From positions 22,998 through 86,997 of the forward strand of contig NZTP01000083.1 of the NCBI GenBank assembly GCA_002696485.1: a stretch of DNA of 64,000 nt, in the 5' to 3' direction. The translations under genes were made by a program, and so were the position numbers. This stretch comes from Altibacter sp. (GTDB lineage: Bacteria; Bacteroidota; Bacteroidia; Flavobacteriales; Flavobacteriaceae). Below the pieces are notes generated by a model. It was not told the origin of the DNA. It worked only from the letters and a program-made list of their open reading frames with translations, and searched no databases. Each line of letters starts with the position of its first letter. Positions within the stretch are counted from its first letter, which is position 1. Shown in pieces: positions 1 through 9,770 of the stretch.

Positions 1-3000
1 ATGGTACTATTCGGTTCGTGCGCCTCCTATGATGCGCTCTATCGTGAACCCGATAGGCAAGTGGTTTATCCTTCAGAAAAGAAGGTGGAAAAAACTTTCT
101 ATCTCATTGGTGACGCAGGACTTTCCCCAATGGACGGTATGAGCGACGCCCTTAAAACACTTCAAAACCTCATAAAGGATAAGGACACCGAAGGCGATTT
201 TGCGATATATTTAGGTGATAATATCTATCCCGACGGAATGCCTCCACAAGATCAACCCATAGGGCGTAAGTGGGCCGAGAACCATTTGGATGCACAACTT
301 AGAGCACTCGAAGATTTTAAGGGTGAGATTGTTTTTATACCGGGAAATCACGACTGGTATAACGATGGTCTCGCAGGGTTACGCCGTGAAGAACTCTATT
401 TAGAATTCGCGTCGGGTAAAAATCTATTACGACCCTCAGGGGGCTGCCCTCTTGAAAGCATTGATCTGGGCGAGAACATTCAGTTGATCGTAATAGATAC
501 ACAGTGGTATTTGGAGGACTGGAACACAGACCCTAGTATCAATGAGAATTGTGAGATAAAGACGCGAGAAAAGTTCTTTATAGAAGTGGAGACCGAATTG
601 GAAAAGAATCAAGGTAAGACCATTCTTTTTGCAATGCATCATCCTATGTTTACCTACGGTGCCCATGGCGGACACTTCGCTTTAAAAAAACATTTGTATC
701 CATTGCAAAAAAAGATACCAATGCCTATTCTCGCTTCATTGGTGGCGCAAATACGGTCGCAGGGAGGCGTTTCGGTGCAAGACCGTTATAACGAATTGTA
801 TAACAAATTAATGACGCGCTTGGCGACCATTTCAAAAAAGAGCAAGCGCCTTGTCTTTGCATCGGGTCACGAACACAGCATGCATCACATTGAGCAAGAT
901 GGGTTAATTCAGATCCAAACAGGCAACGGTGCTAAATCGAGTTTTGCAGATCTTGGACAATTTGGTGAATTTAGCTACGGCGGACAAGGATTTGCGGTTA
1001 TGGATGTGTTTGAGGACGGATCGTCGTGGGTAAAATACTATGGTGTTGGAGATAATTACACCCCTGAGCTATTGTTCCAAAAGGAGATCATCGCTCCTCC
1101 AAAACCTTATGACATCAGCAGTTTGCCAAAATTGCCAAAAGATCTAAAAACAATAAGCGTACCTATCTACAAGCAAGACTCTATCAATGAGGCGCTATTC
1201 TTTAAAACCGTGTGGGGAAAAAAATATAAGGATGTGTACGCTCTCCCCGTTGAAGCTCCCATTGGTTACTTGGATACCCTCTTTGGAGGTGTTACCGTAA
1301 TTGGTGAAAGCAGTAATAAGAATTTTAAAGCCTTGCGATTAGAAGATAAGGATGGGAACGAATACCGAATGCGTACCCTAAAGAAAAATGCGCTAAATTT
1401 TCTAACAAAAATAGATGTTTCCTTAGACCCTCAAAACGTAGAAGCCTCACAAGAGACCGATGCAAAGGAAGAGATATCGTTTCCCGATAATTTTGATAGT
1501 AACTTCTATACCGCTACCCACCCATACGCCCAAATGGCGATTCCTGTTTTGGCAGATGCGATCGAGATCTTTAATACAAAACCCAGGTTGTATTATATTC
1601 CCAAGCAGGAGCGTCTAGGTAATTACAACGAGAATTTTGGAAATGACCTGTACTATATTTCAATACAACCCAATGAGGATAGCGAGGGCCAACGCACCTT
1701 CGAATATCCGGACGATATCGAGACCACGGATGATATCCTTATTAAAATGCGCGCCCGTGCCGATCTCCGAGTGGATGAGCAAAATTATATAAAATCAAGA
1801 TTATTCAATATGCTTATTGGCGATTGGGATCGTGAAAGCGATCACTGGCGTTGGGCCGAGTACTACAACAGGGACAGCCTTAATGTATTTGTACCCATCC
1901 CGAAGAATCAAGACGATGCTTTTTCCAGCTTTGAAGGGAGCATCCTCGATGTGGCAAAGTCTATCTTCGGAAGCAATAACCAGAAGCATATCTATAGTGA
2001 AGACATACGGGATTTGCAATACTTTAATGAAGAAGGGATCATTCTGGACAGAGCGCTTCTGAAGCGCTCGGGGAGAGCCCAATGGATCTTTTTGGCCGAA
2101 ACAATGCAGAAAACGTTAACCGATTCGCTCATTGATGCGGCCTTTATGAGGGTTCCTGAAGAGGTACGTGAAGAATCCTTAAAAGAGATTATTGAAACCT
2201 TGAAAGCTCGAAGAGAGAACTTAGTGGACATAGCAGATCGTTACTATTCCTATTTGGCTACGCAGCAAACCATAGAAGGAAGTAATTATAACGACTATTT
2301 TGAGATCACAAGACTGCCGGAAGGGATGACCAATGTTAAAGTATATGCTAATTATAAGGATGCACGGAAGGAACCGGCCATCGATCGCACGTTCAGGGCC
2401 AAGGAGACACGTGAGATTTGGATCTATGGTTTGGATGGTAAAGATACGTTCGAAATACATGGCGACACAGACGGAGATCTGATCTTTGTCCGATTGATTG
2501 GAGGACAAGGGATCGACACTTATAAACTCATAGAAGGCGAAAATGCTAAGGTGTACGATCATGAAAGCAGAGAAAGTAATGTGGAAGTGCGAAAAGGGGG
2601 CAGTCTTCGATTTACCGATGTGTACAATCTGAATGTGTACGATTACCGGAAACAGATCACGCGCTCCAACGATTATGCTTCAGTCTTTGGCTACAATCCG
2701 GATGACGGCATGAATGCGGGTATACAATTCACATATCTGGTAAATAATTATCAACGAAATCCGTTCTCCCAAAAACACACGGCCCGAGCATCTTACTATT
2801 TTGACACTTCAAGTTTTGATGTAGAATACAATGCAGAATATGCTAATATTCAGAACGATAGAAATCTTAGTTTTGGCCTCTATTTTACCAGTCCAAACTA
2901 TACGGTAAACTATTTCGGCTACGGAAATGAGACGCTTAATCCTGAAGAGGAATTAGGGATCGAGAACAATAGGGTCGAATTACAGACTATTGCTGCCAAC

Positions 3001-3699
3001 ATTGGTTTGCTTCGAAACTCTAATTTTGGTAGTTTCTTTAAACTTCAAACAAAAGTGGAAGCCATACGGCTTCACAGTCCGTTGCCCGCCTCACTTTCAC
3101 CAAATGCGACTTTGATACAAGACGAAACTTCCTATTTCGGAACGCTGGAAGGACTTTATAACTATCGCAGCTACGACAATCCGTTGAACCCAACTAAAGG
3201 AATGATGTTCGATCTTTCGGCGGGAGCTACCGACAATTTAAAGGATTTAGACAGGATATTCGGATTTCTTAAAACCCGACTGGGTTTTTATAATGCTTTA
3301 ACGAGAAACAAGAAGGTTGTTCTTAAAACGAATATTCAGGCAGGATTTAACTTCGATAACAATTTTGAATTTTATCAAGGTGTGACCTTAGGCGCTAATA
3401 ACGGCTTACGGGGGTACCGGGAGGAACGGTTTACCGGAAAATCATCTTTAGTTGGAAGTGCCGATGTGCGGTATAGTTTCAACGAATTTAAAATAGAACT
3501 CATCCCCATTCAGGTGGGGGTCTATGGAGGAGCCGACCTTGGGAAGGTCTGGGTACCGGGCCATGAATCCGATAAATGGCACAATTCCTTAGGCGGCGGG
3601 TTATGGATCAATGGTTCGGGTGGCCTCAATGGATCTTTCAGTGCTTTTCATTCGGTGGAAGGGACGCGCTACGTGTTTGGCTTCGGCCTTACCTTTTAA
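1..3699 (+). CDS. Metallophosphatase / kinase-like / Omp85-type barrel fusion lipoprotein (5' partial), paralog 1
   Basis: The frame is open from the first base, and the first residues (LFGSC) look like the end of a lipoprotein signal peptide, so the true start is probably just upstream of the window. Residues 35-310 carry all calcineurin-type metallophosphatase motifs: GDAG at 37, GDN at 72, GNHDW at 115, HHP at 213 and GHEH at 289. The middle part (about 380-830) is not a family I recognise by name. It has a lysine-bearing strand (MRTLKK, about 457-462), then GDWDRESDHW at 607-616 and PKNQDDAF at 634-641, which resemble the catalytic and metal-binding loops of FAM20/HipA/CotH-like kinases. 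The last 330 residues look like an outer-membrane barrel of the BamA/TamA class: LRGYREERF near 1136-1144 and a terminal aromatic residue (GFGLTF). Family knowledge places such barrels in the outer membrane. The substrate is unknown. A paralog follows after 16 bases. Confidence 0.8.
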   Translation: MVLFGSCASYDALYREPDRQVVYPSEKKVEKTFYLIGDAGLSPMDGMSDALKTLQNLIKDKDTEGDFAIYLGDNIYPDGMPPQDQPIGRKWAENHLDAQLRALEDFKGEIVFIPGNHDWYNDGLAGLRREELYLEFASGKNLLRPSGGCPLESIDLGENIQLIVIDTQWYLEDWNTDPSINENCEIKTREKFFIEVETELEKNQGKTILFAMHHPMFTYGAHGGHFALKKHLYPLQKKIPMPILASLVAQIRSQGGVSVQDRYNELYNKLMTRLATISKKSKRLVFASGHEHSMHHIEQDGLIQIQTGNGAKSSFADLGQFGEFSYGGQGFAVMDVFEDGSSWVKYYGVGDNYTPELLFQKEIIAPPKPYDISSLPKLPKDLKTISVPIYKQDSINEALFFKTVWGKKYKDVYALPVEAPIGYLDTLFGGVTVIGESSNKNFKALRLEDKDGNEYRMRTLKKNALNFLTKIDVSLDPQNVEASQETDAKEEISFPDNFDSNFYTATHPYAQMAIPVLADAIEIFNTKPRLYYIPKQERLGNYNENFGNDLYYISIQPNEDSEGQRTFEYPDDIETTDDILIKMRARADLRVDEQNYIKSRLFNMLIGDWDRESDHWRWAEYYNRDSLNVFVPIPKNQDDAFSSFEGSILDVAKSIFGSNNQKHIYSEDIRDLQYFNEEGIILDRALLKRSGRAQWIFLAETMQKTLTDSLIDAAFMRVPEEVREESLKEIIETLKARRENLVDIADRYYSYLATQQTIEGSNYNDYFEITRLPEGMTNVKVYANYKDARKEPAIDRTFRAKETREIWIYGLDGKDTFEIHGDTDGDLIFVRLIGGQGIDTYKLIEGENAKVYDHESRESNVEVRKGGSLRFTDVYNLNVYDYRKQITRSNDYASVFGYNPDDGMNAGIQFTYLVNNYQRNPFSQKHTARASYYFDTSSFDVEYNAEYANIQNDRNLSFGLYFTSPNYTVNYFGYGNETLNPEEELGIENNRVELQTIAANIGLLRNSNFGSFFKLQTKVEAIRLHSPLPASLSPNATLIQDETSYFGTLEGLYNYRSYDNPLNPTKGMMFDLSAGATDNLKDLDRIFGFLKTRLGFYNALTRNKKVVLKTNIQAGFNFDNNFEFYQGVTLGANNGLRGYREERFTGKSSLVGSADVRYSFNEFKIELIPIQVGVYGGADLGKVWVPGHESDKWHNSLGGGLWINGSGGLNGSFSAFHSVEGTRYVFGFGLTF

Positions 3700-3715
3700 T
3701 AAATAATGTATAGCT

Positions 3716-6700
3716 ATGATGCGATGTTGTATCCTTTTACTTTTTAGTATGATTCTTATCGCTTCCTGTACCACTTCAGGTACGGTGATCGATAGGAATG
3801 CTTCAGAAGTGTGGCAAGACGATAAGGATACCGTATCGGTAAAGGCGACATTCATTATAACCGGAAACGCGTCCGGCTTTAATAGTGATAAAGTATTATC
3901 AGCCATAAAAGAAACGATTGTTGCAACGCCTTCAGAAAAGCGTTACATCCTGTTTGTGGGAGACAATATACGTGGGGATAGCGAAGCTAAAATTAAAGAG
4001 AATCTGGATAAGCAAATTGCCGTATCAAAAGCCAGCAAAGCCAAAGCTTTCTTTGTTCCCGGTAAATACGAATGGGAATTCGATGGAACGAAAGGCTTGG
4101 AGGTTATGGAGGATTATTTGGAAAAAGCCCTTGAAACCGATGAGGTCCTAACACCCAATAATGGTTGTCCGCTGGAAAGTATCGAGATATCAGAGTCCAT
4201 TCAACTTCTCGTCATGGACAGTCAGTGGTATCTGGAAAATTGGGACAAGCATCCGGGTATGAATGATAAGTGTGAGATCAAAACACGGGAGAAGCTGCTT
4301 TTAGAGATTGAAGGAGAATTAAAGGATCATGCCAATAAACTGGTGCTGTTTGCGATCCATCATCCGTTGTATACTAATGGTTTTTATGGGGGACGGTTTT
4401 CGGCTCGCGATCATCTGTTTCCGTTTCAAGGAAATATCCCGCTTCCGGGTGTGGGTACTTTAGTAGCACAAATTAGATCGCAAGGCGGACCCTCTATGCA
4501 GGATCGGTTTAACCTTCGGTATAGGGAGATGGTTGATGCCTTGCTTCCATTGCTCACGGAAAACGATCAACGTATCTTAGTGTTTTCGGGACACGAGAAA
4601 AACCTCCAGTATATAGAAAAAGGAGCCATACGCCAAATTATTTCAGGTGCCGGAAATGATACCAGACCTGTTGGGATTAGTGATAACGGATTATTTTCTC
4701 ACGGAGGACAAGGGTTCACCGAAGTGGCAATTTTTGAAGATGGTAGTGCTTGGGCTACCTTCTTTGGTGTAAATGCCGAAGGGAAAGTTAGTGAACTCTT
4801 TCAGAAGAAGGTCATTACAGCACCTATCCCTCCAAAGCTGGATCATCTCCCCACAAATTTTCCTAAAACAATGAAAGCTTCGGTCTACGATCTGGATCTG
4901 GTAGATCGTTCCGATTTCTTTAAGTCGTTTTGGGGCAATCACTATCGCGCGGTGTATGGAACCAAGGTTGAAGCCAAGGTCGCGGTATTGGATACGCTTT
5001 ACGGAGGGCTTACTATCGAGCGACCCGGAGGCGGACACCAAACAAAGTCGTTACGACTGTTGACCAAAGAAGGGAAAGAGTACAATATGCGTGCCTTGAA
5101 GAAAAGTGCCACTCAATTTCTAAAGAGTACTACGTTTAAGGGGATAGACGGAGAGAAGTATTTTTCTGAAACCGTTACCGAAGAACTGATCTTGGATTTC
5201 TATACAGCGGCACACCCCTATGCGGCATTTGCCATCCCAACGCTCGCTAAGGCGGCCGGAGTGTACTACACTACGCCTGAATTATTTTATGTACCGCAAC
5301 AAAAAGCGCTAGGCAAATACAATGAGGAATACGGCGACCAACTATACATGATCGTTGAAAAACCCTCTGATGAGTACACTGACAAGAAGAATTTTGGCTA
5401 TCCGGATGATGTTGAAAGTACCGATGATCTCTTAAATAAACTTAGAGAAGACGAAGATTATATTTTAGATGAAGAGGCCTACATTCGGGCACGTATCTTC
5501 GACATGCTTATAGGCGACTGGGACCGTCATAGCGACCAGTGGCGATGGGCCGTTTTTGAAAATGAAGGAGGCAAGACCGCTTTCGTTCCAATCCCTCGGG
5601 ATCGAGATCAGGTATTTGCCAATTTTGATGGAAGTTTTTTGAATGTACTGCGCAAACTCATGGGAGGTGTCAATCAGCTTGGGGTTTATGGACCGGACAT
5701 TCACGATGTGAAATGGTTTAATGTGGCGGGCTCCAAACTTGACAGAGCTTTGGTAAAACGCAGCGCCAGAGAAGTATGGCTAGAGCAGGCTAAAATCCTG
5801 CAGGCCGCCATCAACGAACAGATTGTCGATCAAGCCTTTAACGCACTTCCTAAAGAGGTGCAAGACAGTACCGTCGTCGAGATCAAATCCCATCTGCTGG
5901 CACGTAAGGACAATTTGGTCTCCATCGTTGATCGTTATTATTCTGCTTTCATTAGGTTTCAAATGATCACCGGAACCGACAAAGACGATTACTTTGAAAT
6001 TACCCGACTCCCGAATGGGGTGACCCGTATTGTAGGATACAGGATCAAAGATGGGGAGAAAGGAGATTTGTTGTTCGATAGAACTTTTAATAGTCGGGAG
6101 ACTGAAGAAATTTGGCTTTACGGTTTGGATGATGACGACGTATTTACGGTCACCGGAGAGGGAGATCATCCGGTATTGCTTCGCATTATCGGCGGGCAGG
6201 AAAAGGATCGCTACAACATACAGAACGGAAAAAGAATCAAGGTATACGATCGCCGGTCTATGGACCATGAGATCGTGAATAAAGGAGGAGCGCAATTTCG
6301 GTTTACAAACTTTTATGAAGCGAATTTGTACGATTACCAAAAGAAACCATCATCAGGGGGCAGCATAGGCTTATTTACAGGCTACAATCCCGATACCGGG
6401 CTCTCTGTAACAGCCCAATTCGAGAAGACCGTAAATCAATTTATTGCAAATCCGTACGGTCGAAAATTCAACCTAAGCGCCGAATACCACTTTTTGACCC
6501 AAGGATTAGATATTAAATTCGCCAAGCGGTATGCTGCGGCAGTGGGTTCATTCAACATGCTGCTACAAGGACGTGCAACATCCAAAAATTATACTCAAAA
6601 CTTCTTTGGCTTCGGAAATGAGACCCGCAATGATGAAGAAACTTTAGGAATTGATTTCAACAGGGTAAACCTTAGTTGGTACGAAGGAGGAATTGGTCTC

Positions 6701-7387
6701 GAGACTGCTTCAGAGTACGGAAGTTTTTTTCAAATTGGTTTGAACCTTCAAGCGGTAGATGAAATTCGTAATGGGGTTAATTTCTTCGACCAGAACTTTT
6801 CCGAAGCATTTGGTGCACGCTCTTATTTCTTGAAACCCTCATTGACGTATCGCTATAAGAACTTTAACGATCTCTATTTTCCAACTAAAGGAATGCTGTT
6901 TCAAATTGAAGGGGGTGCCATTGAAGCATTGGATTCAGAAACTATAAGCGCTTTTGTAGATACCGGCATCACGTTTTACAATTCACTGTTAAGTAATAAT
7001 AGGTTGGTGTTAAAGACCGAAGCAAAGAGCTATATCACTTTTGGAGATCGCCCTGAGTTCTATCAATCCGCTCAATTAGGGGCTGCACGCGGATTGCGAT
7101 CGTATCGCAATCAAAGGTTTACGGGTGATAAAGACCTATTGGGAAGTGCAGATCTCTATTACAGTTTTGAAGAACTTAAGACCTTTCTCTTTCCATTGGC
7201 GATCAATGTTTTTGCGGGATACGACATAGGCAGGGTTTGGGTCTCAGGTGAAGATTCCCAACAATGGCACCAGTCGTATGGCGGCGGAGTGCTACTGAAA
7301 TGGACCGATGCGATCTTGGGTAATGTAAGTGCATTCCATGGGGCTGAAGGTTTACGTATAGCCTATGGTTTCGGGCTTAGTTTTTAA
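3716..7387 (+). CDS. Tandem paralog 2: degenerate metallophosphatase / kinase-like / Omp85-type barrel lipoprotein
   Basis: This 1223-residue protein starts with a clear lipoprotein signal (lipobox IASC, Cys18). It is collinear with its upstream neighbour and shares long identical motifs, so the pair arose by tandem duplication. The phosphatase motifs are eroded: GDAG has become GNAS, GNHD has become GKYE and GHEH has become GHEK, while GDN and HHP remain. The N-terminal domain is therefore probably inactive. The middle domain keeps a glycine-rich stretch (GGGHQTKSLRL), a lysine strand (RALKK, about 455-459), GDWDRHSDQW at 600-609 and PIPRDRDQVF at 625-634, a fuller kinase-like set than in paralog 1. 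The C-terminus has the Omp85 motif LRSYRNQRF and ends GFGLSF, a plausible barrel-insertion signal. Its 3' end overlaps the convergent gene by 11 bases. Confidence 0.8.
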   Translation: MMRCCILLLFSMILIASCTTSGTVIDRNASEVWQDDKDTVSVKATFIITGNASGFNSDKVLSAIKETIVATPSEKRYILFVGDNIRGDSEAKIKENLDKQIAVSKASKAKAFFVPGKYEWEFDGTKGLEVMEDYLEKALETDEVLTPNNGCPLESIEISESIQLLVMDSQWYLENWDKHPGMNDKCEIKTREKLLLEIEGELKDHANKLVLFAIHHPLYTNGFYGGRFSARDHLFPFQGNIPLPGVGTLVAQIRSQGGPSMQDRFNLRYREMVDALLPLLTENDQRILVFSGHEKNLQYIEKGAIRQIISGAGNDTRPVGISDNGLFSHGGQGFTEVAIFEDGSAWATFFGVNAEGKVSELFQKKVITAPIPPKLDHLPTNFPKTMKASVYDLDLVDRSDFFKSFWGNHYRAVYGTKVEAKVAVLDTLYGGLTIERPGGGHQTKSLRLLTKEGKEYNMRALKKSATQFLKSTTFKGIDGEKYFSETVTEELILDFYTAAHPYAAFAIPTLAKAAGVYYTTPELFYVPQQKALGKYNEEYGDQLYMIVEKPSDEYTDKKNFGYPDDVESTDDLLNKLREDEDYILDEEAYIRARIFDMLIGDWDRHSDQWRWAVFENEGGKTAFVPIPRDRDQVFANFDGSFLNVLRKLMGGVNQLGVYGPDIHDVKWFNVAGSKLDRALVKRSAREVWLEQAKILQAAINEQIVDQAFNALPKEVQDSTVVEIKSHLLARKDNLVSIVDRYYSAFIRFQMITGTDKDDYFEITRLPNGVTRIVGYRIKDGEKGDLLFDRTFNSRETEEIWLYGLDDDDVFTVTGEGDHPVLLRIIGGQEKDRYNIQNGKRIKVYDRRSMDHEIVNKGGAQFRFTNFYEANLYDYQKKPSSGGSIGLFTGYNPDTGLSVTAQFEKTVNQFIANPYGRKFNLSAEYHFLTQGLDIKFAKRYAAAVGSFNMLLQGRATSKNYTQNFFGFGNETRNDEETLGIDFNRVNLSWYEGGIGLETASEYGSFFQIGLNLQAVDEIRNGVNFFDQNFSEAFGARSYFLKPSLTYRYKNFNDLYFPTKGMLFQIEGGAIEALDSETISAFVDTGITFYNSLLSNNRLVLKTEAKSYITFGDRPEFYQSAQLGAARGLRSYRNQRFTGDKDLLGSADLYYSFEELKTFLFPLAINVFAGYDIGRVWVSGEDSQQWHQSYGGGVLLKWTDAILGNVSAFHGAEGLRIAYGFGLSF

Positions 7388-8237
7388 GAGATAATTCGTA
7401 GAGATTTCCTCCCTCATATCCATTGCGTTCATCGGCTATATACAAAGTATTGGCATCCTTAAAACTCACGCTTTCCTTTTGTGATTTATGACCTATTTTT
7501 ATCTTCTCCACAGTTCCTTCAAAGAAGCGATCTTCAGGGTAGTCCTTGAAGATAAACACTTTGTTATAGGTAAGAAGTGCTATAGTACCGTTTTTATGAT
7601 CGATAGCTGCACCAGTCACATCACAATCTGAAGGATCCTTACAAGTTTGGAAAGAACTGATTAATTTGGCTTCAAAAGTACCGGCCTGCGCAGGAAGTTT
7701 ATACAACTTTGTCGTGCCATCAAAACTAGCACTACGGTTTCTGGTAAACAAGTAAAAATGCGCATTAAAATAGATAAAAGCCTCTATGTCGAAGTTGCGC
7801 TCGCTCTTCTTTGGAGGAAATTCAGTTTGATCTTCCAAGGAGAATGCCGTCCTTGTGGCAGTGGTTCTGTCGTCTTGGATAGCAACAACATTTGGTACCG
7901 TGTAGATAGCTAGGTTTTGGCGCGCATTATTGTTATTGCCAAAATCACCTATATAAAGCGTTCCTTTTTCATCAGCCGCAAGATCTTCCCAGTCATGATT
8001 CTTGGCATTTTCGATCTTGATGGTTCTCTTAACGGCTTCTGTAGCGGGGTCGACACCAAAAACGGCACGCGCATTTCCTGCATCGGCCACCATCCAGACT
8101 AGCTCACTATCGGGAAGATATTCAATTCCGCTCACTTCATCCAACGCTAGGGGTAAGGAGGCAAGGATTTTTAGCTTTCCAAAGTCTTGACAGCTTATCG
8201 AAACACAAATAAAACAAAAGAGCAGAAACTTTTTCAT
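7377..8237 (-). CDS. Predicted surface lipoprotein, SdiA-regulated/beta-propeller-like
   Basis: The protein has 286 residues with a lipoprotein signal peptide (SISC, Cys16), so it should be lipid-anchored. The body has propeller-like repeats (DEVSGIEYLPDSELVWMVAD, DWEDLAADEKGTLYIGDFGN, DVTGAAIDHKNGTIALLTYN) of the kind found in SdiA-regulated and PE-PGRS/LVIVD-like beta-propeller proteins of Bacteroidota. No catalytic motif is evident, so the function is unknown. The start codon lies only five bases from the preceding dps terminator hairpin, so it may depend on read-through or on a promoter overlapping that hairpin. The 3' end overlaps the end of the convergent paralog 2 gene by 11 bases. Confidence 0.6.
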   Translation of the reverse strand: MKKFLLFCFICVSISCQDFGKLKILASLPLALDEVSGIEYLPDSELVWMVADAGNARAVFGVDPATEAVKRTIKIENAKNHDWEDLAADEKGTLYIGDFGNNNNARQNLAIYTVPNVVAIQDDRTTATRTAFSLEDQTEFPPKKSERNFDIEAFIYFNAHFYLFTRNRSASFDGTTKLYKLPAQAGTFEAKLISSFQTCKDPSDCDVTGAAIDHKNGTIALLTYNKVFIFKDYPEDRFFEGTVEKIKIGHKSQKESVSFKDANTLYIADERNGYEGGNLYELSLKN

Positions 8238-8282: not shown

Positions 8283-8774
8283 TTATGCTGTGGGATGCGT
8301 ATCGTTTGTTTTCATAGACCAAGCATCTAGCATCCAACTAGTCTTTTCCAGATCGGCAATATACGATCCAATGAGGTCTATGGTTCCCTCATCGCCCGCA
8401 GCGTCTGCCTTTTCGATCACCTTTCGCATTTGCTGAATTATGGTGCCATGGTCATTAAGAAGGGTCTTCACCATTTGCACATCGTCGATGGTAGAAGAAG
8501 ATTCTTTTAAATTGGATTTTTCTAAATAGTCTGAAAAATTACTCACAGGCTGAAACCGTAAGGTAAGAATACGTTCTGCGATCTCATCGATCTTGAGTTT
8601 AGCATCGTCGTACATTTCTTCAAACTTTATATGAAGATCAAAAAAGTTTTTTCCAACAACGTTCCAATGAAAATTTCGCAATTTTTGATAGTACACGTGG
8701 TAATCGGCTAATAAGATATTGAGTTCTTGTGCCGTTTTGGTGATTTTAGTCTTATCCAGGTTCAAGTAATTCAT
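8283..8774 (-). CDS. dps: Dps-family DNA-binding ferritin-like protein
   Basis: The 163-residue protein has the Dps/ferritin signature YHVYYQKLRNFHWNVVG followed by FFDLHIKFEEMYDD. These contain the inter-subunit ferroxidase ligands of the family: the His of NFHWN, the Asp/His of the second motif and the following Glu. Dps dodecamers bind DNA and oxidise Fe(II) with peroxide, protecting DNA during stress. The start chosen is the ATG at 8774 (MNYLNLDKTK). A longer open frame exists upstream, but a strong promoter (-7 element at 8798-8805) lies inside that extension, which makes the inner ATG the better choice and leaves a short leader. A terminator hairpin follows. Confidence 0.9.
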   Translation of the reverse strand: MNYLNLDKTKITKTAQELNILLADYHVYYQKLRNFHWNVVGKNFFDLHIKFEEMYDDAKLKIDEIAERILTLRFQPVSNFSDYLEKSNLKESSSTIDDVQMVKTLLNDHGTIIQQMRKVIEKADAAGDEGTIDLIGSYIADLEKTSWMLDAWSMKTNDTHPTA

Positions 8775-8797
8775 AGATTTTAATTTTTTGGTTCTTT

Positions 8798-8828
8798 CAA
8801 AAGTACGAGCAAAGCAAGGGAGTGCCAA
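8798..8828 (-). promoter_or_regulatory. dps promoter
   Basis: Read on the minus strand, a TTG is followed after 20 bases by TACTTTTG (8798-8805), matching the Bacteroidota consensus TTTG-N17-23-TAnnTTTG. It lies 24 bases upstream of the chosen dps ATG. Confidence 0.6.
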
Positions 8829-8947
8829 TTTTTGAGCGCTGTTTAATGTTTTTTTAACGCTGAAATTCTGCATTTTAAGAAATTGTAAAGAATACATTTT
8901 AATGAGGGTTATCCGGTAATCGCCAAGTATCTTTCTTGTAATTATTG

Positions 8948-8978: not shown

Positions 8979-9770
8979 ATGAAACCCTATTTAACCTTGG
9001 CCATACAGGCTGCATTGGACGCAGGTGAAAAGATCTTAAGTGTGTATGAAACCGGTTTTGACATCGAGACCAAGGACGACAATTCACCACTAACTACCGC
9101 CGATACATTGGCCAACGATGCCATTATGCGCTACCTCAGGCAAACGGATATACCCATTATAAGTGAAGAGAACAAACGCATTGCTTATTCAGAACGAAAA
9201 AACTGGACACGCTGCTGGATCGTGGATCCGCTGGACGGAACGAAAGAGTTTATTAAACGGAATGGCGAATTTACGGTGAACATTGCCTTAATTGAGGATA
9301 ATGCACCCCTATTGGGTGTTATTTATGTCCCGGTAAGCAAAATACTTTATTTTACGTCACAGGACGGTACCAAGGCATATAAGATCGAATTAGCTTCGGA
9401 AACGGTTTCCGTAGATGATATCTTCGCAAATGCTTCGGAAATACAACCCGATACAAAAGGGGGGTCTCCGGTAAGGATCGCAGGGAGTCGTTCTCATTTA
9501 AATGAGGATACCAAGGCATTTATTTCAGAAATAGAGAAAGAGAATTTGGTTGAAATCGTTTCTAAAGGAAGTTCTTTAAAATTTTGTTTGGTGGCTGAAG
9601 GGGCTGCCCATGTGTACCCGCGGTTTGCACCTACCATGGAATGGGATACGGCTGCAGGTCAGGCTATTTGTGAAGCAGTGAAGATCAAGGTTCTGGATAA
9701 CGATACTCAAAAACCGTTGCGCTATAACAAGGAGAATTTATTGAATCCTTACTTTTTGGTAACTGCCTAA
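8979..9770 (+). CDS. cysQ: 3'(2'),5'-bisphosphate nucleotidase CysQ
   Basis: This 263-residue member of the inositol monophosphatase superfamily hydrolyses 3'-phosphoadenosine 5'-phosphate (PAP) to AMP and phosphate. Visible motifs are the metal-binding SEE (62-64), WIVDPLDGTKEF at 80-91 and the C-terminal MEWDTAAGQAI near residue 223, all diagnostic of the CysQ/IMPase fold. PAP is the by-product both of PAPS reduction and of sulfotransferases. This gene heads a string of PAPS-making genes, and a sulfotransferase lies 10 kb downstream, so its likely job is to clear PAP made by polysaccharide sulfation. It overlaps the next gene by one base (TAATG), indicating translational coupling. Confidence 0.9.
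   Translation: MKPYLTLAIQAALDAGEKILSVYETGFDIETKDDNSPLTTADTLANDAIMRYLRQTDIPIISEENKRIAYSERKNWTRCWIVDPLDGTKEFIKRNGEFTVNIALIEDNAPLLGVIYVPVSKILYFTSQDGTKAYKIELASETVSVDDIFANASEIQPDTKGGSPVRIAGSRSHLNEDTKAFISEIEKENLVEIVSKGSSLKFCLVAEGAAHVYPRFAPTMEWDTAAGQAICEAVKIKVLDNDTQKPLRYNKENLLNPYFLVTA

Follow-up and report, generated by a model that had tools for sequence, protein, structure and literature searches.

The first 7387 nucleotides of a stretch of Altibacter sp. DNA (contig NZTP01000083.1, positions 22,998 to 86,997; the whole 64,000 nucleotides are called the window here) encode two tandem proteins that are best explained, with moderate confidence, as an outer-membrane kinase–phosphatase built on an Omp85 barrel, its two activities divided between the duplicates. 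The two open reading frames (ORFs), 1-3699 (protein 1) and 3716-7387 (protein 2, 1223 amino acids), have products of about 1230 amino acids and are separated by 16 bases; the probable start codon of protein 1 is found 33 bases before the window begins (L009:10966). The first-pass annotation described two paralogs, and both exist, but the tandem holds three copies, of which the first, paralog A, immediately precedes the window (L009:7278-10958), and proteins 1 and 2 are the second and third (paralogs B and C). Each protein would consist of a lipid-anchored domain of the purple acid phosphatase (PAP) type, a phosphotransferase domain that is new and a divergent relative of protein kinases in its fold, a beta linker and an Omp85 barrel of 16 strands.

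The division of labour is visible in the residues of the two predicted active sites. Eight phosphatase residues (the metal ligands D, D, Y, N, H, H and H and the catalytic His of purple acid phosphatases) and eleven kinase residues (G-loop, beta3 Lys, catalytic Asp and metal Asp, in that order) were scored in 137 full-length proteins, which include the window copies and paralog A and exclude five partial ORFs. All scored residues of both domains are kept in 92 proteins. Another 28 lack the full phosphatase set and have 11/11 kinase residues (L078 belongs here solely through unread bases). In a further 17 the phosphatase set is complete at 8/8 and kinase residues are changed; the change affects one residue in four of these proteins and is gross in 13, where 3-6 of 11 remain. 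None of the 137 has lost both sets. Protein 1 has 8/8 phosphatase and 4/11 kinase residues; protein 2 has 3/8 phosphatase residues and is one of 120 proteins with all eleven kinase residues. By these residues, protein 1 appears to have kept the phosphatase only and protein 2 the kinase only, and the tandem looks like an ancestral kinase–phosphatase that was divided between duplicates.

The losses follow a pattern. One of the 13 grossly kinase-degenerate copies is a duplicate record, and in all 12 distinct copies His605 (numbering of protein 2) is replaced by Glu or Ser, Gln608 by His or Tyr and Asp629 by Asn or Ser. Asp603 is kept in 12/12 and the Lys in 11/12, and every one of the 12 shares its tandem with a phosphatase-degenerate copy. 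Among 60 near genomes, the window's own included, 38 have a match. By hand tally, a single full-length copy is present in 29 of the 38, and in 29/29 it is complete in both sets; the nine genomes with two or more copies each retain one or more complete phosphatase sets and one or more complete kinase sets. FastTree trees require five changes for the phosphatase-less state and one for the kinase-less state when built from the full protein, and six and one when built from linker and barrel; these counts do not separate gain from loss, and the linker and barrel tree warns of long branches meeting. L078 was dropped from the tree and rate counts; L112, a duplicate of L048, was dropped from the identity comparison and from the linker and barrel tree. 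At a barrel identity of 38-60%, phosphatase and kinase identities are 39 and 56% for phosphatase-less pairs (180 pairs), 51 and 52% for intact pairs (3462) and 63 and 56% for kinase-less pairs (46), pairs that are not independent of each other. The dead phosphatase domain thus drifts at matched barrel identity.

The same data bear on the idea that the kinase-fold domain is a non-catalytic binding or scaffold module and the phosphatase the sole enzyme. One clade has lost its kinase residues and its protein nevertheless persists, as this idea would allow, but the phosphatase has died in 5-6 separate places in the trees with the kinase residues staying 11/11, and the kinase domain also exists without any phosphatase, which makes a scaffold very unlikely. 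It is found with linker and barrel in proteins of about 860-960 amino acids, with the linker alone in proteins of about 520-570 amino acids (several with a lipoprotein-like start, judged by eye), and as a stand-alone protein of 410-442 amino acids with a hydrophobic N-terminus in the window's genome and six others fetched. The kinase domain is the constant part among these architectures, though all were found by searching with it. In the window's genome the stand-alone relative, of 436 amino acids and with a hydrophobic N-terminus, is encoded on another contig (L040:4700-6010).

The kinase-like fold itself is confidently predicted. An AlphaFold2 (AF2) model of residues 390-766 of protein 2, computed from protein 2 and 53 relatives with protein 1 among them, has a predicted local distance difference test score (pLDDT) of 87.6 and a predicted template modelling score (pTM) of 0.88. 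It runs strand, G-rich turn, strand, strand with Arg459 and Lys463, helices, two strands, long helix, GDWDRHSDQ loop, two strands and DRD loop, a predicted order that is that of a kinase. A Foldseek search against PDB gave 368 matches at E<=10, nine of them at E<=0.001, and kinase folds make up 50 of the 50 matches listed. CtkA (3akl, E 1.2e-4) and HipA (4pu3, E 4.1e-4) are best, followed by RIO2 (1.3e-3), Fam20 (4.0e-3) and CotH (5jd9, 4.9e-3), and HipT, proteins of the ABC1/COQ8 type and PI4KIIalpha are also listed. The titles of some matches do not mention a kinase; we take HipA, HipT, the Rv3197/MSMEG_1954 entries and YihE to be kinase folds, and the pre-40S chain 6zxg_z is presumably a RIO kinase. 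The first-pass annotation had guessed a kinase fold for the middle domain, and as a predicted fold this is borne out.

The motifs on which that guess was based fared unevenly. In protein 2 all quoted strings are present in the order given: PGGGHQTKSLRL, YNMRALKK, GDWDRHSDQW and PIPRDRDQVF. The glycine-rich stretch had been ascribed to both paralogs, but protein 1 lacks it and reads ESSNKNFKALRL, GDWDRESDHW and PIPKNQDDAF, with GGG, Gln, His, Gln and the first Asp changed. The ATP lysine had been placed at residue 459, which is an Arg; the lysines occupy positions 462 and 463, of which the second alone is conserved. The motifs are conserved beyond chance: GGG, Gln, Lys, DWDRH, Gln, Trp and both aspartates of DRD each occur in at least 90% of 103 diverse middle-domain rows, a set that takes in the window copies. 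In Fam20B the catalytic base is Asp299, accompanied by His301, according to the accessible part of PMC5865150, and Asp603 and His605 of protein 2 have the same spacing. The likeness does not prove common descent. All in all, the first-pass interpretation is partly supported.

Searches with sequences and profiles give a fainter picture. The middle domain of the scanned members has no Pfam model above cut-off. A Fam20C profile run over 148 genomes had one match at E<=0.001, with E 4.8e-4 for a single genome, and it lies inside a member of the family (L254); with 20.4 bits against a cut-off of 26.8 for Fam20 (PF06702), it is the best of all members, and 1/103 members matched at E<=1. Membership in Fam20 is not upheld by the profile. 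CotH (PF08757) reached E<=1 in 2/103 members (best E 0.013, below its cut-off; no CotH match in the window's genome), HipA (PF07804) in 4/103 (best E 0.063, also below cut-off) and FAM198 in 1/103. EnY2, an unrelated Pfam family, matches 11/103 members with a best E of 0.0018, more than any kinase family; it and other scattered Pfam matches on single members were taken as chance. A PDB sequence search with protein 2 alone found nothing, and a profile (A1) gave seven weak matches to PDB sequences with no kinase among them. A profile of 103 rows (A4) has CtkA on top (E 0.058), the protein that also heads the Foldseek list. The proposed comparison with CotH and HipA was run as hhalign against genome-derived alignments: CotH scored 31.6, above two controls (phosphatase 22.4, barrel 19.3), in an alignment that pairs the catalytic and D-x-D loops, and HipA scored 16.5, below both. 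Taken singly, these sequence links to kinases are weak. By predicted structure and motifs the domain is a kinase-like fold, and by their profiles it is not Fam20, CotH or HipA.

That the kinase match is an artefact of modelling or searching, the true fold being something else, is highly improbable. Such a view draws on the missing significant sequence match to any known kinase family and on the EnY2 matches; the confident model, the kinase folds throughout the listed matches and a motif order that fits kinase elements speak against it.

The N-terminal domain is of the purple acid phosphatase type, as judged from sequence motifs and matches. The scan of protein 1 found Pfam Metallophos, and no family was found in a Pfam scan of the N-terminal region of protein 2. 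The same region of a relative (L015) matches purple acid phosphatase 1qfc with phmmer (E 2.1e-5 for the whole sequence, 0.046 for the best single stretch), and the alignment pairs the GDNxY, GNHD, H and GHxH stretches. The first-pass annotation had a phosphatase in both proteins; the motifs are intact in protein 1 (Table 1) but broken in protein 2, which reads GNAS, GDNIRGD, GKYEW and GHEKN. Two cysteines of the domain are invariant in 135/135 proteins and would agree with an oxidising compartment. In alignment A3 one Cys near the N-terminus is shared by at least 90% of the 47 rows, and a crude lipobox pattern, too loose to serve as a test, matches 83/135 proteins; the N-terminus may be lipid-anchored.

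A 1200-residue AF2 model of protein 2 (pLDDT 87.8, pTM 0.84) predicts the all-beta linker and 16 strands of at least 10 residues, with BamA and TamA as best fold matches of the barrel (E 3e-12). Pfam Omp85 is above cut-off in protein 1 (32 vs 24 bits); a Pfam scan of protein 2 gave no Omp85 match, and the barrel is there assigned by model and fold match. Its RGLRSYR is presumably an L6-type motif. Residues 748-863 are modelled as all-beta, unlike POTRA, and no POTRA-like helix-containing repeat was seen in the model between kinase domain and barrel. The patatin domain that marks PlpD and type Vd had no match in the Pfam scans.

In the Omp85 proteins studied, the extension on the N-terminal side of the 16-strand barrel is periplasmic. 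PlpD is a precedent: its fused enzyme reportedly lies in the periplasm and has an effect on lipids (PMC11116518). For both reasons the enzyme domains are likelier to be periplasmic than on the surface, and the surface location proposed by the first-pass annotation finds no support here. Export of the enzyme domains through the barrel is rather unlikely: lipoproteins of Bacteroidota can be surface exposed, which would suit it, and both the barrel topology and PlpD point the other way.

In the preferred reading, a kinase–phosphatase at the outer membrane, the barrel would hold both enzymes at the inner face of that membrane. The kinase domain would phosphorylate a protein, glycan or lipid in the periplasm or the outer membrane, and the phosphatase domain would counteract the kinase or process its donor or product. 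A single-copy ancestor would carry out both activities, and the tandem duplication in this genome would have divided them, with protein 1 as a phosphatase with a dead kinase and with protein 2 and paralog A as kinases with a dead phosphatase. Proteins 1 and 2 may still act as a hetero-oligomer; a possible model is Fam20A-Fam20C, in which a pseudokinase activates its active partner (accessible part of PMC5865150).

Gene linkage adds a further element. Outside the window's order, a test of the distance to PPK1 took in 78 of 98 genomes with a match, and positions for both genes were available in 73 of these. Nineteen of the 20 genomes not used had no position listed, and neither had G091, which was kept among the 78. 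The kinase domain and PPK1 lie at most 10 kb apart in 18/73 genomes from eight families, where 0.7 would be expected by random placement. Within 20 kb the number is 35/73, of which 18 belong to one family (f38) with a mostly near-constant spacing of 13-14 kb that may be mere synteny. Among the 77 domain-carrying genomes of the window's order, 12 have a small stand-alone kinase, 15 have more than one PPK1 and 11 have both (hypergeometric 2e-9, uncorrected for kinship). The linkage suggests polyphosphate as a candidate phosphoryl donor. In an unlikely extension of the reading, polyphosphate from the linked PPK1 would replace ATP, the kinase would modify an outer-membrane target, the acid phosphatase would reverse this, and in this genome the halves would be split between tandem pseudoenzyme partners in a complex. 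Two tandem kinase-Omp85 genes without phosphatase, another tandem duplication, adjoin PPK1 at L182:2023-7529.

Several observations weigh against the kinase–phosphatase reading. Foldseek TM-scores are low (0.16-0.47 among the matches listed), which points to a distant branch of kinase folds. No kinase family profile attains its cut-off on the domain, and the hhalign comparisons with CotH (E 0.007, probability 5%) and HipA (E 0.36) are not significant. Kinase loss is a single event, and the split seen in this genome has therefore happened once in the sample. Adenosine triphosphate (ATP) is not expected in the periplasm, which leaves the kinase with a donor problem. Regarding the PPK1 link, full-length genes and PPK1 seldom adjoin in the window's order (G039, locus L061, is one case), and the window's own genome has PPK1 on contigs C94 and C7, away from the tandem. 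The conserved residues could also serve other kinase-fold chemistry such as AMPylation or glutamylation. SelO and SidJ are kinase folds that transfer adenosine monophosphate (AMP) or glutamate instead of phosphate. A domain that is an enzyme of this kind, transferring AMP, glutamate or another group or acting on a small molecule, would agree with the divergent fold and low TM-scores, with a periplasmic side lacking ATP and with the enzyme-like conservation of residues. However, the phosphatase to which the domain is joined in the two-domain form and the linkage to PPK1 point to phosphate chemistry, and the DRH loop resembles Fam20; we consider this alternative unlikely.

The remaining neighbours were compared across 79 fetched loci other than the window's own; the counts are lower bounds, as some loci are cut short. 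In L009 an HD-PycTM gene (6002-7225) adjoins paralog A and is divergent from it. PycTM is named for the anti-phage Pycsar effectors. Relatives of this gene are found in 54/79 loci, which suggests a housekeeping role, and in 7/20 loci from other families. A protein of 792 amino acids with no Pfam match (L009:3627-6005) has relatives in 41/79 loci, and the lipoprotein-like protein at 7377-8237 has relatives beside the family in 38/79. Downstream of the tandem lie a ferritin-like gene (8283-8897) and a gene of the inositol-monophosphatase family (8979-9770), which we take to be Dps-like and CysQ-like, respectively. In several loci from other families an SdiA-regulated/phytase-like protein, a histidine phosphatase (presumably SixA-like) and PPK1 adjoin the family gene. 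There is a Bacteroidota cluster with varying subsets of HD-PycTM, histidine phosphatase, PPK1, SdiA-regulated/phytase-like protein and kinase-Omp85 with or without phosphatase (examples in Table 1). Weak shared Pfam matches suggest that the SdiA-regulated/phytase-like neighbours may be the same gene as the one at 7377-8237; a direct search with the window's protein matched 0/20 of them.

Table 1. Features of the tandem and its surroundings (window positions unless a locus is named)
Feature	Position	Strand	Basis
Protein 1 (paralog B): lipoprotein-like N-terminus, intact PAP-type phosphatase, degenerate kinase-like domain, beta linker, Omp85 barrel	1..3699	+	
Protein 1, predicted phosphatase: GDAGLS, GDNIYPDG, GNHDW, HHPMF, GHEHS; 8/8 scored residues intact	109..879	+	Pfam Metallophos E 1e-8
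Protein 1, kinase-like domain, pseudokinase-like: ESSNKN loop, DRE for DRH, H for Q, N for metal D	1165..2319	+	
Protein 1, Omp85 barrel (span of Pfam match, residues 944-1195)	2830..3585	+	
Protein 2 (paralog C): lipoprotein-like N-terminus, degenerate phosphatase, intact kinase-like domain, beta linker, 16-strand Omp85 barrel	3716..7387	+	
Protein 2, phosphatase-fold domain, pseudophosphatase-like, 3/8 scored residues left	3839..4816	+	GAP50 (3tgh; presumably a phosphatase-like fold) fold match E 6.3e-9
Protein 2, predicted kinase-fold domain (residues 390-766, as modelled)	4883..6013	+	AF2 model m96cef4b44af2, Foldseek
Protein 2, G-rich loop PGGGHQTKSLRL (437-448), between first two modelled strands	5024..5059	+	
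Protein 2, third strand YNMRALKK (456-463), conserved Arg459 and Lys463	5081..5104	+	
Protein 2, catalytic-loop-like GDWDRHSDQW (600-609): Asp603, His605, Gln608	5513..5542	+	
Protein 2, metal-loop-like PIPRDRDQVF (625-634): Asp629, Asp631	5588..5617	+	
Protein 2, all-beta linker (748-863) in place of POTRA; first part overlaps modelled kinase stretch	5957..6304	+	AF2 secondary structure
Protein 2, 16-strand Omp85/BamA-type barrel with RGLRSYR	6350..7381	+	
Lipoprotein-like protein, weak below-cut-off Phytase-like match, probable beta-propeller	7377..8237	-	
Cluster example	L256 1294-8493		
Cluster example	L257 4128-11857		
Cluster example	L258 1108-8955		
Cluster example	L061 858-6930		

Compared with known systems, the predicted kinase domain is closest in fold to CtkA, HipA and HipT, which it does not resemble significantly in sequence. 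To our knowledge none of these is joined to a phosphatase or to a barrel in the outer membrane. With Fam20 it shares a kinase fold outside the cytosol, the Asp-x-His catalytic loop and the pairing of a pseudo- with an active partner (PMC5865150, in part), as well as the lone Fam20C-profile match; unlike Fam20, the family is below the Pfam cut-off, bacterial, and joined to a phosphatase and a barrel. The likeness to CotH is one of fold and aligned loops, with a profile match that is not significant. Tartrate-resistant/purple acid phosphatases align with the N-terminal domain, which is here fused to a kinase-like domain and a barrel and degenerate in several paralogs. PlpD, a patatin-POTRA-Omp85 protein, likewise has an enzyme N-terminal to a 16-strand Omp85 barrel, but the enzymes here are different, the linker is all-beta instead of POTRA and the N-terminus is lipoprotein-like. 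A metallophosphoesterase of Riemerella was considered as a possible studied relative and set aside; a review counts it among the type IX secretion effectors (PMC10202324). The main text of a survey of the Omp85 superfamily (PMC4104836), as far as accessible, does not contain "phosphatase", "metallophos" or "phosphoesterase", and a kinase fold and a phosphatase on one outer-membrane barrel were not found in searches of the open-licence PMC literature, a scope that leaves out preprints and most subscription papers. The novelty is the whole assembly, since each fold is already known.

The domain is also carried by five plasmid records (Hymenobacter, Persicobacter, Parabacteroides), as a hypothetical protein or unannotated. 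No Pfam model scores above its cut-off on this domain in the members scanned, and yet 142 of the 395 genomes sampled across the phylum contain it. The family raises the question of phosphate-adding chemistry in a compartment poor in ATP, and the linked PPK1 points to a donor that can be tested. The tandem split is a clear example from nature of pseudoenzymes sharing out a task, and it offers built-in controls for experiments.

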